The position numbers and the translations under genes are program-made. A DNA stretch of 51,760 nt from the IMG/VR virus record IMGVR_UViG_3300046777_001420, positions 1-51,760 of that record, one strand, 5' to 3'. The DNA is from a virus. Of this stretch, positions 14,278 to 26,500 are shown piece by piece. The notes under the pieces were generated by a model. The model was not told where the DNA came from, ran no database searches, and saw only the letters and a list, made by a program, of their open reading frames with translations. Positions within the stretch are counted from its first letter, which is position 1; every line of letters begins with the position of its first letter.

Positions 14278-15999
14278 CTAATGAGATACTAGCTCATTTT
14301 CACGTGCTTGCAAAGCTTGACTAAATGCTGTGGTGTACAGCTCTTGTTGTTCTGGGCTAAGCCTGGAGTTTGATAGCCCAACAATTTGTTTGACAAACAT
14401 TGAACCATTGTTGACTTCCAATTGGACAGTGAACTGTGGCTTGCCATCAATCAAGCACAACACAATGAAGTGTTGTTTCTTACGGACACCCTCTGCATAA
14501 CCAGATGCATTACCAACGCAATTGCGTACGGCTTGTCCCCACTCACCCAGTTGATGTGTATCAATAGGTTGAAAGAATGTCCATTTACTGGAACCAAGTT
14601 CAATCTTGACAGGAACAGGAAACAAATCTTGTGGCAAGCTTTGGTTTGGGTTCTTAATCTTCCAGTTTTCTGCTTGAACATAATCATGAAACTCTTCGAT
14701 GCGCCAACGCTTAGGTGGTGCAAACTCTAAGTCTGGTTTGTCTTCGAGAATCCTGGTAAGCATAGAAGTTGTGTCGTTCCATTCATAGAAACGATAAATG
14801 TGAATACCAAGTTCACCATTTATAGGATACGTTTTTTGCTCTGCTACTTCTTTGTCATAGTATTTAGAAATGATTTGGAAAAATGAAGCAACAGGCATGT
14901 GTTTGCGTAACCATTCCATTGTTACATCACGATGACCATAAGATGAAAAATCAACACTAAGCATTTGTTCAATGTGGTTTTGATAGTAATCAATAGGACA
15001 ATCAGGCCAAATACTATTGACGTAAAGAATACGATCAAATAATTTATTAATAGTTAACCATGGACGCCTAATGTAACTACGGTATTCATTTGCTTCATCT
15101 ACGTATGTTGCGTTAACTTTATTACATTGTTCTTGAATCCATTTCTTAAAGAATGGCTTAGAAATAATATGAAGAATCTTATTGTATCTTCTATAGTTAT
15201 GCCCATAACTACCACTGATGTGCGCATGATATGTAATCAGATTAAACAAAGATTCATAAGATGCTTGCCAAGTTGTTCTATCATCTGTCTCCCAATAAGT
15301 ATTATCTGCATCTGATGAACTAACAAATAAAATTGACGGTAGATTATGTTTGCTTGCAATACGTTCAAAGATATTACTACTGTCTTGCCATACTGAAATA
15401 GTAGTTACTAGTTGTTCTTCAAACTGTTTAATAACTTTATAAAGTTCTTTAGACTTTTGATAATATGAAGTTGCACATGGAATATTCCAATTGCGACTTG
15501 TCTGTCCATTTTGAATTGAATCGATAGTAACCAATTCTTGATGTTGGTACATTACTGAACGACCAGTAACTACTTGTTGATATGAATCAATAGAGTTAGT
15601 AATTACCCGAGGCACAATTTCATGTGCAGCTTTTGTATCTTTAAATGCAAAGGCATAGCCATACACATACTTGCCTTCTTGTCCTTTAGATGGTAGCCAT
15701 GCTGCGTACCAGCAGTGCTCGTAGTGATACAAGATGGCAGTAACAATTACCTCGCCATTAGCGATGCGTGTAAATTTATAGTAACGATCTGCTGCAGGAT
15801 TTGAGTTGATGTGTGTGATTGCATCATCAAGCAATGACTCACGCACCACATCAACAGGGATCAATCCCTTGGGATTACCAAGTGGATGGGTAGATTTTCT
15901 GGCTTTAGGTTTTGGATTGTTGCTGCGTGCCAACTTCTTGAGCACTGGGTCATACGCAAGCAGTTCAGTTTGCAGATTAGAAGGGAGACGAAATTGCAT
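14278..15999 (-). CDS. PcfJ-like protein
   Basis: A 573-residue protein. The C-terminal domain has 'LGEWGQAVRNCVGNASGYAE', then 'HFIVLCLIDGKPQFTVQLEV' and 'VKQIVGLSNSRLSPEQQELY', the core pattern of PcfJ-like proteins (an Asn-Cys-Val-Gly motif at about residue 493, then a 'Q--G--N' motif). The N-terminal two thirds are helical and aromatic-rich. PcfJ-like proteins occur on conjugative plasmids and phages; their activity is unknown. Start 15999 lies 31 bases after leader element copy 5. The longer frame begins inside that element and is not credible. Confidence 0.72.
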   Translation of the reverse strand: MQFRLPSNLQTELLAYDPVLKKLARSNNPKPKARKSTHPLGNPKGLIPVDVVRESLLDDAITHINSNPAADRYYKFTRIANGEVIVTAILYHYEHCWYAAWLPSKGQEGKYVYGYAFAFKDTKAAHEIVPRVITNSIDSYQQVVTGRSVMYQHQELVTIDSIQNGQTSRNWNIPCATSYYQKSKELYKVIKQFEEQLVTTISVWQDSSNIFERIASKHNLPSILFVSSSDADNTYWETDDRTTWQASYESLFNLITYHAHISGSYGHNYRRYNKILHIISKPFFKKWIQEQCNKVNATYVDEANEYRSYIRRPWLTINKLFDRILYVNSIWPDCPIDYYQNHIEQMLSVDFSSYGHRDVTMEWLRKHMPVASFFQIISKYYDKEVAEQKTYPINGELGIHIYRFYEWNDTTSMLTRILEDKPDLEFAPPKRWRIEEFHDYVQAENWKIKNPNQSLPQDLFPVPVKIELGSSKWTFFQPIDTHQLGEWGQAVRNCVGNASGYAEGVRKKQHFIVLCLIDGKPQFTVQLEVNNGSMFVKQIVGLSNSRLSPEQQELYTTAFSQALQARENELVSH

Positions 16000-16030
16000 G
16001 GTGTGTTCAGAGTAAGTTCGTAGTGTAGAG

Positions 16031-16054
16031 CAGTTTAACGTCATGCTCAGGACG
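16031..16054 (-). promoter_or_regulatory. CGTC/GACG leader element, copy 5
   Basis: CGTC, loop CTGAGCAT, GACG, TTAAACTG. Five bases after the stop at 16060 and 31 bases before the PcfJ-like ATG (15999). The ATG inside the loop opens a spurious in-frame extension. Confidence 0.78.
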
Positions 16055-21491: not shown

Positions 21492-21510
21492 GCCACTCTC
21501 AGTGAGTGGC
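21492..21510 (-). promoter_or_regulatory. GCCACTC/GAGTGGC hairpin at a start codon
   Basis: A perfect 7-bp stem with a 5-base loop (ACTGA), 10 bases upstream of the ATG at 21481. Confidence 0.45.
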
Positions 21511-21518
21511 AATAACTA

Positions 21519-21557
21519 GACCAGGGTTTGCACCTGGTCACCCGCTTTTACGGATCA
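21519..21557 (-). repeat. TCCGTAAAAGCGG + hairpin element, copy A
   Basis: Begins with the TGA stop of the gene at 21555, then TCCGTAAAAGCGG and a hairpin GACCAGG-TGCAAAC-CCTGGTC. A second copy with the same 13-base core lies at 21786-21826. Confidence 0.65.
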
Positions 21558-21764
21558 GTTGTCAACAGACTTAAACTCCTGAATCTTCAGATACAAGTCT
21601 TCAATCTGTTTATGGTCCAATACGACTTCTTTGCCTTCGATATCTGTAAACGAAACCGGTGTGCCTGCGCCGAAGTCGACGCAGAACAAATCGATGCAAT
21701 GCATCAGGAAGTCAGCCTGGTTGAAGTCGAGCTGCATAACATTAAGCAATGGTGCGGTACCCAT
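21555..21764 (-). CDS. Hypothetical protein
   Basis: About 69 residues from the ATG at 21764; an ATG at 21737 is an alternative. 'MQLDFNQADFLMHCIDLFCV', 'GAGTPVSFTDIEGKEVVLD', 'LYLKIQEFKSVDN'. Strand-helix-strand with a DNA-mimic-like acidity. No family recognised. Flanked by the two copies of the TCCGTAAAAGCGG element. Confidence 0.58.
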   Translation of the reverse strand: MGTAPLLNVMQLDFNQADFLMHCIDLFCVDFGAGTPVSFTDIEGKEVVLDHKQIEDLYLKIQEFKSVDN

Positions 21765-21785
21765 CTCCGCTGGGGGTAATACTGA

Positions 21786-21826
21786 GCCTGGGGGTCGCAC
21801 CCAGGCATGCCGCTTTTACGGACTCA
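21786..21826 (-). repeat. TCCGTAAAAGCGG + hairpin element, copy B
   Basis: Begins with the TGA stop of the gene at 21824, then GTCCGTAAAAGCGG and a hairpin GCCTGGG-TGCGACC-CCCAGGC. Core identical to copy A and loop nearly so, while stem bases differ but still pair. Confidence 0.65.
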
Positions 21827-22102
21827 GCATCCAAGCATCTCGTCCACATAGGACTTGATGACCTGGAGGTGGTCTCGATCAAGTGTCTGGCTACGGCCAT
21901 ACTCAAGCAGGTCAAGGACCTGGAGCATGACCTTTTCACCAGCCTCTTCACGAGACGGCACGCCACACATATCGAAGATCTCATCACGTGACATCTGAGT
22001 GATGTCAACGCAATCGATCTGACGAACGGTGGCGATAGTGGTGTTGGTCACAGTGTTACTCCTAGTGAGCTTGGACTTACACTGCTGAATTGCAGATGCC
22101 AA
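21824..22102 (-). CDS. Hypothetical protein
   Basis: A 92-residue protein: 'MASAIQQCKSKLTRSNTVTN', 'CVDITQMSRDEIFDMCGVPS', 'VLDLLEYGRSQTLDRDHLQV'. The C-terminal helical part is well formed, the N-terminus polar. Leader element copy 9 lies 28 bases upstream. No recognised family. Confidence 0.63.
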   Translation of the reverse strand: MASAIQQCKSKLTRSNTVTNTTIATVRQIDCVDITQMSRDEIFDMCGVPSREEAGEKVMLQVLDLLEYGRSQTLDRDHLQVIKSYVDEMLGC

Positions 22103-22130
22103 GTTGTGACCAACCGTTGAGTTGTCTGCT

Positions 22131-22152
22131 GCGTTTAACGTCCAGCTTGACG
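22131..22152 (-). promoter_or_regulatory. CGTC/GACG leader element, copy 9 (short loop)
   Basis: CGTC, six-base loop AAGCTG, GACG, TTAAACGC; 28 bases before the ATG at 22102. Same stem as most copies but a different, shorter loop shared with copy 10. Confidence 0.72.
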
Positions 22153-22178
22153 GGCCAATAATTAAAATCCCCTGGTAC

Positions 22179-22358
22179 TCAGAACGGAAACACTTCTATC
22201 ACAAGCAGATCTTGCTCCCAATCTTCAAAAGATTGGAAATATTGAACCGCCTGTTCCTCTGTGTCGAAGCTGCGTTCACTTCCTTGAAAGTACGCATCAA
22301 TAGATGTGTAATCCGCATAATCTGAGTAATCTCTTTTGACCTGAACTGAATAAACCAT
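22179..22358 (-). CDS. Hypothetical acidic protein
   Basis: A 59-residue protein from the ATG at 22358: 'MVYSVQVKRDYSDYADYTSI', 'GSERSFDTEEQAVQYFQSF', 'EQDLLVIEVFPF'. Beta-helix-beta with many Tyr and Asp. Start is 25 bases after leader copy 10; the long upstream frame crosses the origin-like region and is not real. Unknown function. Confidence 0.65.
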   Translation of the reverse strand: MVYSVQVKRDYSDYADYTSIDAYFQGSERSFDTEEQAVQYFQSFEDWEQDLLVIEVFPF

Positions 22359-22383
22359 TGTGTTAAGTTGAATAGGACATGCT

Positions 22384-22405
22384 ACGTTTAACGTCCAGCT
22401 TGACG
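22384..22405 (-). promoter_or_regulatory. CGTC/GACG leader element, copy 10 (short loop)
   Basis: CGTC, loop AAGCTG, GACG, TTAAACGT; 25 bases before the ATG at 22358. It lies between that gene and the DnaA-box cluster. Confidence 0.72.
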
Positions 22406-22500
22406 GGTCAATCGCTGAGATCCCTTGCAACGACAGTCTTTTCAGCGAATTACCTCTCGCGGAAGTGCCCCAAAAAAGGTCAGAATACCCGAGTAAATAG

Positions 22501-22569
22501 GTCGGGATTAAGTCGGGATTAAGTAGTTTTCCACAGGTAACATGTAGTTTTCCACAGGGTTGTGGAAAA
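22501..22569. other. Candidate replication origin: DnaA boxes and 11-bp tandem repeats
   Basis: TTTTCCACA occurs at 22527-22535 and 22548-22556 (21 bases apart, about two helical turns), and in reverse at 22561-22569. Two tandem 11-base repeats GTCGGGATTAA lie beside them at 22501-22522. TTTTCCACA is the DnaA-box form reported for Synechococcus. The 288-base stretch 22359-22646 has no credible gene and lies close to the switch between the two arms. Confidence 0.6.
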
Positions 22570-22604
22570 GTTGATGATACGACAGCGGGTGAGTGCTGCA
22601 TAAA

Positions 22605-22624
22605 CCCCTGACTCGTGTCAGGGG
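22605..22624 (-). terminator. Terminator hairpin
   Basis: Minus strand CCCCTGAC-ACGA-GTCAGGGG followed by TTTATG, downstream of the gene at 22647-22919. Perfect 8-bp stem, short T-run. It shields the origin-like region from upstream transcription. Confidence 0.6.
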
Positions 22625-22646
22625 AAGAGGCAACAATCAATTGTAG

Positions 22647-22919
22647 TCAGTTAACTTGCTTCGCACTGGCAATTGCTTTCCCATTCTTCACAAGAACCGA
22701 CAGCTTATACTCAGGCGAGCAGCTACCCTCTAGGCAATCTGCTGGGTCATAGCACTCGACTGCAATAGCATTGTGTAGATCCACAAGCCACTGCTTCACG
22801 TCAGTACCGAACTGACCCAACACTTCAAGGTGAATGCTCACCTTCTTGCCTTTCATCAGATACTCTGCTGCCTGATCGCAACGGCCAAAGTAAACTTCAG
22901 CCTGCTCAATTGTACGCAT
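22647..22919 (-). CDS. Hypothetical protein
   Basis: A 90-residue protein: 'MRTIEQAEVYFGRCDQAAEY', 'LMKGKKVSIHLEVLGQFGTD', 'ECYDPADCLEGSCSPEYKLS'. Four Cys, three of them in a 'CYDPADCLEGSC' cluster that may bind metal. It is the single gene between the origin-like region and the early control region, so it could act in replication start or early regulation, but this is only position-based. Confidence 0.62.
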   Translation of the reverse strand: MRTIEQAEVYFGRCDQAAEYLMKGKKVSIHLEVLGQFGTDVKQWLVDLHNAIAVECYDPADCLEGSCSPEYKLSVLVKNGKAIASAKQVN

Positions 22920-23049
22920 TGAATTGAATGCAATGGAACTCTGCGTTACACGGATGCGCAGCCCCCGTTACACTACCTACCACCCCGCTATTCTTTTTTT
23001 TCTTCCCACAACTCACTACATGTAGGTATGTGGAGAACAGTCAGGTAAT

Positions 23050-23148
23050 TTTGCACCCAAATGGTCCTAAAAGTTGGCGCCTCCCTGGAGCGCACAACAA
23101 AATAAATGTGTAAAAAAATATAAAATCCCAAATGAGTACCTAAAAGTC
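23050..23148. repeat. Two copies of a CCCAAATG...CCTAAAAGT element
   Basis: CACCCAAATGGTCCTAAAAG at about 23056-23075 and TCCCAAATGAGTACCTAAAA at about 23126-23145 share both halves with a 2-base spacer difference; a third half (TCCCAAAT) lies near 23157. They lie 70 bases apart in the 304-base gene-free stretch 22920-23223, which is otherwise rich in A/T runs (T8 at about 22994). Likely regulator binding sites. Confidence 0.45.
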
Positions 23149-23177: not shown

Positions 23178-23200
23178 GCCGGGTTTTTAGGCCCGGCTTT
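23178..23200. terminator. Bidirectional terminator
   Basis: GCCGGG, loop TTTTTAGG, CCCGGC, with TTTTG after it on the plus strand and ATTTTTG after it on the minus strand. Placed after the stop of the gene at 23224-23436. Confidence 0.8.
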
Positions 23201-23223: not shown

Positions 23224-23436
23224 TTAACTTTGTTTTTTACGTTGGTAAGCTTGTGTTGCTTTCACTGCTTTTTTAAAAGCTTCTTCATCAGGAAGCTCAT
23301 AAGCCAATTCTTTCTTTGCGCTGGTTACAAAATCACGCACTTCTAACGAATCACGCCCTTCTTTTGCCATGTCAAGGGCTTTTCCCTTAATACTTTCTAG
23401 CGCATCTACGCGTTTTTGGCGTATACCTGCGTCCAT
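23224..23436 (-). CDS. Small helical basic protein, first gene of the minus arm
   Basis: A 70-residue protein: 'MDAGIRQKRVDALESIKGKA', 'LDMAKEGRDSLEVRDFVTS', 'EEAFKKAVKATQAYQRKKQS'. Highly charged helices with a basic end. It is transcribed away from the virion arm, starting about 100 bases from the divergent gene at 23539, and is closed by a strong terminator. Could be an early regulator; no family recognised. Confidence 0.65.
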   Translation of the reverse strand: MDAGIRQKRVDALESIKGKALDMAKEGRDSLEVRDFVTSAKKELAYELPDEEAFKKAVKATQAYQRKKQS

Positions 23437-23538: not shown

Positions 23539-26500
23539 ATGGCTCTTTCTCCGGCGGATTTCTACTCTTACAGCCGTGCTACTGGGGCACCAGTCCCCGA
23601 AGATCCGGAAGAAAGGGCAAGAATGGCGCCTGAGGTACTTGAGTACAGGCGTAATCAACTCAAGGCCCCCCGCCAAGAGCAGCAACAAGGGCCTGATCCC
23701 CTTTCTGTGGGACTTGGAATCGGCATTGCACTAGCTGGTGGCGCTGCTGGTGCTTATGGTCTTAATAAGTTACTGCGTGGCCCTAAGCGTTCGGCTAATG
23801 CTGGTGTCAGGCAGACTGATCTTAGTAGTTTTTTTGACACATCTACAAAATTAAAGTCAGAACCCCAAGAAAAAGACTTTTCTGAATGGCAAGCAAAGCA
23901 ATCTTCTGAACCCCAACCTTCTAAGCAACCGGTCGCGGTAACAGAAGAGCCTGTTCGGCAAGTTCCAGATGTTGCACCAGAACAAGAAGTAACAGTCCCT
24001 GGGCCACTAGAAACTGATAGGGATGTTGCTCAAGAATTGTTAGATGAATATGTACGCAATGTTGGGTTAGAAACCAAACGTCAACAAAAAATTCAACGTG
24101 ATATTGCTACCCAAAAAGAGGGTATGGCAATGCGTGTTATTGATGAATTAAGGCAAGAAGCAAAGCAAGAGGCTGTTCAACCCAAAGGTTTTAATCCTCG
24201 TAAATATATTGAAGATACGGGTGCTGTAGCTCCTGCTGAAGATTTAACTACTAAACAACAACTTCAGGAACCCGCTGTTTCTAAACAAAGCGCTGAAGCC
24301 GTTGATACAGGTTTAGATCAAACAATTCAAAATATTGATGCTATTCAGCAAAGGGATACAGATTCTGTTAAAGAAGGTGGTTTTGTTTCTTCTGCTAATA
24401 CAAGCACCAATGAGGCTTTTGCCGAATTAACGGTTAATCCAAATGAGTCTGTTGTTGCACAATTAAACAAACGTAAAGCGCTGCGTCAACAAGCGTTAAA
24501 TCAAACTCGAACTTCTTTGGGCATCAGCGCAGAAGACGCTCCTTTACCAGAAGGGTTTTCTGTTCAAGCAACACAAGCAGAAGGATTCCAAGTCGATCCT
24601 AATGCTGTTGGAACTTTAGCAGAACAAAAACTTGAAGAAGCAAAACAGCGTCGTCAAACGCCTCCTCCTGCACCTATTACAGATTCATACCGTCAAGCTT
24701 TATTTGATGAAAACGGATTGCTGAGGCCTGAGATTATTGCTAATAATTTAGGTGATGAAAATGTTTTCCCTGGAGAGTTAGCCAAAGAATTAAGAGATGC
24801 AATGTCTACTCGGTCAACAATACAAGCTAGACGCGAAGGTGGCGATTTAAGCAAGATTGTAATTCTAAATCCTGGTGCGCATTTAAGAGCTACTAAACGC
24901 GTTCGCGATTTGTTATCACAGGATAATGCCAACACTATTAAAGATTATTTGATTTCCGGTGGAGAAATGCAGGCTCCACGGACAAAAGGTTTTGGCTATA
25001 CAGGTACTAGTTCTTTAAAAACTGAAGTAGTTACTATTACCGATAAGGGTGGTCAACAAGTAATTTCCGTATCTGGACCCAAGGCTGCTGCTCGTTATGA
25101 TCGCAGTGATTTAGAACCTCTTTATTATGATTCTGCTACAGGATCTTATCTTCGTAAATCAGATATTGGTGCAACTCAGTCAAGTGAAGCTCAGGCTGGT
25201 AGTGGCATTGGCGAAGAAATAGGCCAGGCTATTGGATTTGTTCCAAGAGAAAGTGTTGAAAAATTTACCACATCTCCTGGAACCTCAGCAGCAGGCAAGT
25301 ATTTAGGACAAGAGCAAGGCCAAGTTAATTGGTCTGATGATTTAGATAATTTACTTAATAGTGCAATTGACGAGGAACTGGAACAACTGAATAAAAAACA
25401 AGGTGTGGATTATGCAATTGGTGGTGTTAAAGAGTATGGAAGCGGAAAAGAATCTCGCTTTTTGGAAATTCAACCGCGTCCATTGTTCAATACTCATTAC
25501 GAAGCAATGGATGCCGATAAAATTAAACTTACAAACAATGGCAATCCATACTTAAAAATTGATAAATTAACTTTAATTGCTAATCCAGGGTTAGAGCAAT
25601 ACATTGATCCAAATTATGGAACTTTATTTAAAAATCCTTACACCAATCGTCAGTTTACTAGTCCGCAAGAAGCAACTGATACTTATAATCGCTTGACAAA
25701 TAATTTAAATGTAAAGTTGATTGAGCGTGCTGAAAATCGCATTAGCGGTTTAGAGAAAGGTGAGAACTTAAATATTGAATTAAGCAAGAGCAGAACTACA
25801 GGAAAAAATGTTACTACACGTTTAAATCCAAATCTTGTTATTGATCAAGTTGTAACACGCGATCCTTCTGGTGCAACACGGACAACTGATGTAACTTTGG
25901 CCCAAGCTTTACGTGGGCAATTGTTAAATAAAAATTTAATTCAAGAACATCGAATTATCAATGATGATGGTTCGGAAGGAGCAAGGTTCTTCAAACAAAC
26001 AAAGTATAAAGTCCCCGAAAATCGCATGTATGTAGATAAAACAACAGGAGAAAAACAGCCATCTATTCTTGGTTTTGATGATGCCAATTTGCCTCCTGTT
26101 GATGTTACAAAAGCCGATCAAGTTCCTTCAGCTAAAAACCATTACTTATTCTTGCAAGGAGTAAATGATGCTTTAGAAGATATTACGGGACAGCGCGTTA
26201 AAGTTATTGACGATGCAATTAATTTAGGCAAAGATCCGAATTACGGATTTTTAGGTGGGCCCACAAAAAATCCAATTTTACGTGAGGCTTTAATCGTTGC
26301 AAATACTTTAGCTGATACATCAGAAACTTCTCGTATCCGGATGCAAGCACCAGGTACAGATACAGGTCTTGCTGGACGCTACGGCTTAGGTGCAAGAGAG
26401 TCAAGGAGAGCAGAGTCTACAGTACCAAGTCGCTTGCGTTCTCTTGAAATGCCAGCTCAGCAAGTAAAAGAGATAATGATGACAGATCCTGATATGGGAG

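Follow-up and report, generated by a model that had tools for sequence, protein, structure and literature searches.

The DNA upstream of the early leftward genes of an S-EIV1-like cyanophage carries three exact copies of the cyanobacterial DnaA box, TTTTCCACA, and this module may well be a control site through which early leftward transcription responds to the DnaA of the host. Control of early transcription is our best reading of the boxes, with a role in a replication origin, as put forward in the original prediction, being possible and secondary. The boxes themselves, their recurrence at the same place in related phages, their host-like phasing and their position before an early gene can be read directly from the DNA.

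The stretch analysed (the window) is the entire IMG/VR record IMGVR_UViG_3300046777_001420 (51,760 bases, positions 1 to 51,760), which is classed as linear and is probably a fragment of a phage genome. Among annotated genomes, the closest relative is that of Synechococcus phage S-EIV1 (KJ410740, 79,178 bp, complete, circular map), with which the window is collinear in gene order and shares 74% identity in the DNA polymerase. The left arm of the window is transcribed leftward and contains the genes for SSB and a family-A polymerase; the rightward right arm contains terminase and portal-like genes. The strand switch lies at 23436/23539, between position 23539 and gene X (23224–23436, minus strand), a conserved marker of 70 aa with no assigned function that was used as the query to retrieve 66 related loci. 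Gene X, the strand switch, a bidirectional intrinsic terminator after gene X (23178–23197) and a conserved core element are common to the window and S-EIV1. In contrast, the complete S-EIV1 genome has no box cluster, and its one exact copy of TTTTCCACA is found within the terminase gene. Two further proteins of the window are also conserved in S-EIV1, an early one of 588 aa with a weak PcfJ-like domain (14278–16044) and one of the GP88 family (PF17338, 10959–11747).

Box 1 (22527–22535) and box 2 (22548–22556) are on the plus strand in the same orientation, 21 bp apart, and box 3 (22561–22569) is inverted, on the minus strand, 13 bp start-to-start from box 2, with which it forms a 9-bp dyad. 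The predicted arrangement of two direct boxes 21 bp apart and one inverted box was thus located with three exact matches; the 21-bp direct pair sits in a 15-bp direct repeat, GTAGTTTTCCACAGG. These are the only exact copies in the window and all fall inside 43 bp. Their number by itself is ordinary (shuffle mean 1.13, with 3 reached in 14 of 100 shuffles), and since the window-wide count is uninformative, clustering and cross-genome enrichment were used as tests instead. The clustering is non-random: three exact boxes within 60 bp occurred in 0 of 400 dinucleotide shuffles, two in 1 of 400, and three relaxed boxes (TTWTNCACA) in 0 of 400. The window therefore has a cluster of a species-specific box that goes beyond chance.

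In most cyanobacteria, among them Synechococcus PCC 7942 and Anabaena PCC 7120, the published DnaA box is TTTTCCACA (PMC4674748; DoriC), in agreement with the earlier identification of this 9-mer as the Synechococcus DnaA box. The 11-bp tandem TTTTCCACAGGTTTTCCACAGG was used to scan 84,980 species genomes. Among the matches listed, most were from cyanobacteria, with some from spirochaetes, Saccharibacteria and others, and 40 of the 80 loci kept contained DnaN or DnaA homologues, as in a Nostoc locus (L190) whose boxes are flanked by dnaN and dnaA. In these 40 loci, again among the matches listed, direct spacings peaked at 11 (53 cases), 21 (21 cases) and 12 bp (19 cases), with a further class at 31–32 bp, and inverted pairs at 12–13 bp were rare. 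Cyanobacterial oriC regions beside dnaN (Synechococcus elongatus PCC 7942, Anabaena PCC 7120, Cyanothece ATCC 51142) resemble the phage lineage in the 9-mer TTTTCCACA, often with GG next to it, and in direct spacings of 11, 12, 21 and 31–32 bp. They differ in having up to 12 boxes, whereas the phages have two or three boxes that lack an accompanying AT-rich stretch; the inverted pair of the window-type module is atypical of oriC, which seldom has one. One multi-box TTTTCCACA array is also shared by the low-GC ‘viral’ contigs L316, L319, L326 and L337 (and partly L357), with identical spacings in the first four (13, 43, 16, 56, 21, 11, plus 54 where covered); these contigs may be host oriC fragments or belong to another phage group.

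Sixty-eight loci were compared (the 66 retrieved via gene X, the window and S-EIV1). Within 1.2 kb of gene X on its early side (72 kb in total) there were 17 exact boxes, versus 2 in the remaining 604 kb, which corresponds to a raw binomial p of 4e-15 when relatedness is ignored. After collapse to 44 lineages, there were 13 boxes in 8 lineages versus 2 outside, with about 0.3 expected. Two of the 17 early-side boxes (singles in L109 and L150) were discounted because they fall within a reading frame. A relaxed scan that took in five further near-complete genomes (∼ 410 kb with S-EIV1; ∼ 80 loci) found box pairs solely in the switch region. In all, at least 12 relatives have box clusters at the early side of the switch, in several arrangements. 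The window and L105 combine a direct spacing of 21 bp with an inverted one of 13; G158 also has the direct 21, and its inverted partner is degenerate. L182, G018 and G006 pair direct 12 with inverted 12, some of their boxes being degenerate. G019 has an inverted 13 and a direct 31, and G157 a comparable 30. A direct 11 is seen in L136, L154, L346 and, with one degenerate box, L177; the distantly related G153 has two 11-bp spacings, and L163 a direct 12. A partner of the box 3 type at 12–14 bp, exact or degenerate, is present in L105, G158, L182, G018, G006, G157 and G019. The direct spacings of the lineage (11, 12, 21 and 30–31 bp) fall on the main oriC peaks among the matches listed (11, 21, 12, then 31–32 bp), and the changes between them are close to whole helical turns, as predicted for co-operative binding along a single helical face. 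In eight relatives with diverged flanks, the box blocks contain most of the invariant columns. The module is nonetheless dispensable in the lineage, since 6 of the 41 gene-X lineages that offer sufficient sequence have box pairs, and S-EIV1 has none. When lineages without exact boxes were searched for one-mismatch variants, no host-specific variant cluster was seen besides TTCTCCACA and TTTTACACA, most copies of which are part of the conserved core and the terminator tail.

The gene-free stretch in which the boxes had been placed is real, but extends only from 22359 to 22646 and is flanked on both sides by small leftward genes. Upstream of the module is a gene of 90 aa (22647–22919, minus strand), replaced by unrelated genes in relatives; downstream is an early gene of 59 aa (MVYSVQVKRDY..., 22179–22358, minus strand), the ATG of which is 211 bp from box 3 and which has related genes in its place in L105, L177 and L182. 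Between the boxes and this early gene lies a conserved leader element (TTGACCCGTCAAGCTGGACGTTAAACGTAGCA, 22380–22427, minus strand) with a second copy at 22127–22174. Window-like lineages share the order small gene, stem-loop, boxes, leader element (GTCAAGCTGGACGTTAAACGTAGC or a variant) and early gene. The stem-loop, CCCCTGAC-TCGT-GTCAGGGG (22605–22624, minus strand), is located 3′ of the 90-aa gene, and its stem is kept with changed sequence in G018, G006 and L182. As the terminator proposed to shield the boxes it is weak; it has a weak T-run and the terminator scan did not call it. Nor do the boxes adjoin the arm switch, which is ∼ 0.9 kb away with two leftward genes between. The two tandem 11-bp repeats said to precede the boxes, (G/A)GTCGGGATTA, are present as GGTCGGGATTA AGTCGGGATTA at 22500–22521. 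They are not conserved: L105, which is 89% identical to the window, has a single copy, indicating a recent duplication that is probably non-functional.

In every window-like or tandem-box lineage examined, the first box is 49–283 bp from the start codon of the early gene, a fixed short distance of the kind expected of a DnaA-regulated promoter or leader. The boxes of the 11-bp type (L136, L154, L346) are in the leader, 67–84 bp before the first early gene, and L154 has a sigma-70-like promoter (TTGACA-18-TATTAT) 104 bp upstream of the first box; no such promoter was recognisable at the window's own boxes. The match to the published cyanobacterial box, the recurrent position and the helical spacing together make borrowing of host DnaA likely, and we consider that host DnaA probably binds the boxes. 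That part of the original prediction holds up, whereas its purpose, the first round of replication, is not supported. We suggest that a host-DnaA binding module has been built into the promoter or leader of the leftward early genes. Host DnaA would be available from the moment of infection and would occupy the two direct boxes, which share a face of the helix, together with the inverted third box, so that early leftward transcription might be switched or tuned according to host DnaA activity. The effect of DnaA on transcription at the boxes, and the direction of that effect, are what we infer from this layout. Binding could also assist DNA opening for the phage PrimPol-SF3 replicase.

The cluster had been proposed to be, or to be part of, a phage replication origin at which host DnaA binds, melts the duplex and initiates the first round. 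We regard this as rather doubtful. The boxes are those of cyanobacterial DnaA (PMC4674748), the 11/12-bp tandems of L136, L154, L346, L163 and G153 copy the host oriC with a GG spacer in most, and the region is a non-coding, multi-motif junction between the arms that includes a strongly conserved core. On the other hand, there are only two or three boxes, and the AT content at them is 0.50–0.56, under the window average; the nearest AT-rich stretch (0.67) is ∼ 550 bp away, leaving no adjacent unwinding element. The extremes of GC skew, a check suggested with the prediction, lie away from the switch in the window and in five relatives (S-EIV1, G001, G006, G018, G019), a measure that is confounded by gene orientation. 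S-EIV1, like most relatives, lacks the cluster and replicates without it. The prediction also held that the phage has no visible initiator or primase-helicase, and recommended a search outside the window. S-EIV1 encodes a protein (AHV82140) with Prim-Pol, PriCT_2, D5_N and DUF5906 domains (SF3-type helicase), and a PrimPol-SF3 protein was found in 14 of the 20 records searched, including all 14 of at least 69 kb. The gene is missing from the window because the window is a fragment, and G001, G018 and G019 possess both the protein and the boxes. PrimPol-SF3 helicase proteins usually open their own origin, usually without the need for DnaA. Phages P1 and 186 do replicate using host DnaA, and the P1 origin has DnaA boxes; these are, however, unrelated enterobacterial phages that have initiators and iterons of their own.

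Activation of transcription is compatible with origin activity, as at the phage lambda ori, and the lambda pO/ori region is the closest described parallel. There, DnaA-box-like sequences near the pO promoter were footprinted with DnaA, which stimulates transcriptional activation of the origin (PMC3985674). Two such sequences lie downstream of an early lambda promoter, in a region coupling transcription to the start of replication (PMC3985674). Lambda differs in relying on its own O and P proteins and on host DnaB, whereas the lineage of the window has PrimPol-SF3, with DnaA binding predicted from sequence. A separate candidate for the true origin, or for a promoter or packaging site, is the core at 22991–23065 (minus strand; AATTACCTGAC..TTCTCC..GTGGGAAGAAAAAAAAGAA), the most conserved non-coding element of the switch region and distinct from the boxes. 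It is found at the strand switch in the window and in L105–L170 (AATTACCTGACGCTTCTCC..GTGGGGAGAAAAAAAAGAA) and is strongly conserved in ∼ 35 lineages, the alignment of which gave no consensus RNA fold.

Proteins other than DnaA have to be considered too. Inverted pairs at 12–13 bp are rare in oriC loci and a different dyad-binding protein is therefore possible, in which case the module would be the operator of a phage- or host-encoded regulator and its resemblance to DnaA boxes coincidental. The 3–5-bp spacer of the window-type inverted pair, unusual for oriC, would fit such an operator, as would the enrichment of other operator-like palindromes such as GATACGAATTCGTATC in the same region. Relatives with direct repeats only have no dyad, however; what all have in common is the 9-mer followed by GG, exactly as in the host box, and their direct spacings agree with host arrays, so that we consider an operator of this kind unlikely. 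A decoy of the datA type, where the boxes titrate host DnaA and thereby stop host replication, is less probable still. Multi-copy phage DNA with three boxes each could hold substantial DnaA late in infection, and titration needs no fixed box geometry; yet the helical-phase geometry is kept, the position before an early gene is fixed and there are very few boxes per genome. That the inverted repeat works instead at the RNA level, by forming a hairpin in the early leader, seems to us highly improbable. The window sequence does fold better as RNA than shuffles (z −2.9), but L182 does so weakly (−1.3) and the direct-box lineages do not fold (z −0.1 to −1.1), for which reason a hairpin was rejected as the feature common to the lineages; moreover, no T-run follows and no Rfam family matched at a meaningful score. 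The palindrome GATACGAATTCGTATC is enriched in the switch regions of 18 lineages among L105–L170, and repeats CGTAGTCAG likewise in 11; the palindrome overlaps a putative −10 after which comes a conserved CGCGCC.

A DnaA-responsive control site ahead of early genes has a counterpart in cyanobacterial chromosomes. In 117 sampled genomes of the cyanobacterial phylum, box pairs formed two classes, 11/12-bp and 21-bp, more than 1 Mb apart in, for example, G034 and G097. Genomes of 1.7–2.3 Mb, looked at for the spacing used in picocyanobacterial hosts but possibly from non-photosynthetic Cyanobacteriota, almost never carry a pair (G145 is an exception). Pairs of the 21/22-bp class precede genes of the DUF2811 family (PF10929): in 29 of 30 loci (L421–L450) at least one box lies within 700 bp upstream of the DUF2811 gene, the boxes occurring as singles or as a direct pair or triple at 21/22 bp. 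All 53 boxes are oriented with the gene, and three boxes were found in the other 73 kb. These arrays resemble the window in the direct TTTTCCACA at 21/22 bp, in similar flanks (TTTTCCACAGGTAGTTGGCAGTTTTCCACA versus TTTTCCACAGGTAACATGTAGTTTTCCACA in the window) and in having a small gene downstream; they differ in being chromosomal, in lacking an inverted box and in being placed, almost without exception, 239–608 bp from the DUF2811 gene. The resemblance favours a promoter-type over an origin-type DnaA site for the window pair. A literature search found no paper mentioning DUF2811, and the boxes are possibly an undescribed DnaA-linked site outside oriC. We speculate, at odds that we think are against us, that S-EIV1-like cyanophages repeatedly gained early-control DnaA-box modules that mimic the promoter type of the DUF2811 arrays; by reading host DnaA activity, and thereby the replication or growth state of a polyploid cyanobacterium, such modules would time early expression and replication.

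A few enterobacterial phages are known to have host DnaA sites, but our literature search found none reported for a cyanophage. With its host-like helical phasing and its recurrence in at least 12 relatives within a freshwater lineage, the 43-bp module is a well-delimited target for footprinting and mutagenesis, and would reveal how a cyanophage couples early gene expression to the replication apparatus of its host. Judging by the DUF2811 arrays, cyanobacteria may also possess DnaA-linked sites beyond oriC, which can be tested independently.

An intergenic cassette is repeated between small early genes (21501–21562 and 21747–21828 in the window; around 6985–7055 in L136). It consists of a stem-loop and a second hairpin whose loop holds a GGAGAT Shine-Dalgarno sequence, and relatives have a tRNA T-arm-like version (GAGGGATCGAATCCCTC). 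The cassette is present in many copies per genome and had no match in Rfam; the sole match at gathering threshold in the Rfam scan was tRNA-Leu, the other two being at chance level. Among the contigs retrieved via gene X (L105–L170), ∼ 31 of 66 stop on the early side within 4.4 kb of gene X, seven of these within 300 bp, compared with two on the late side; such ends reflect either a physical end or repeats that interrupted assembly.
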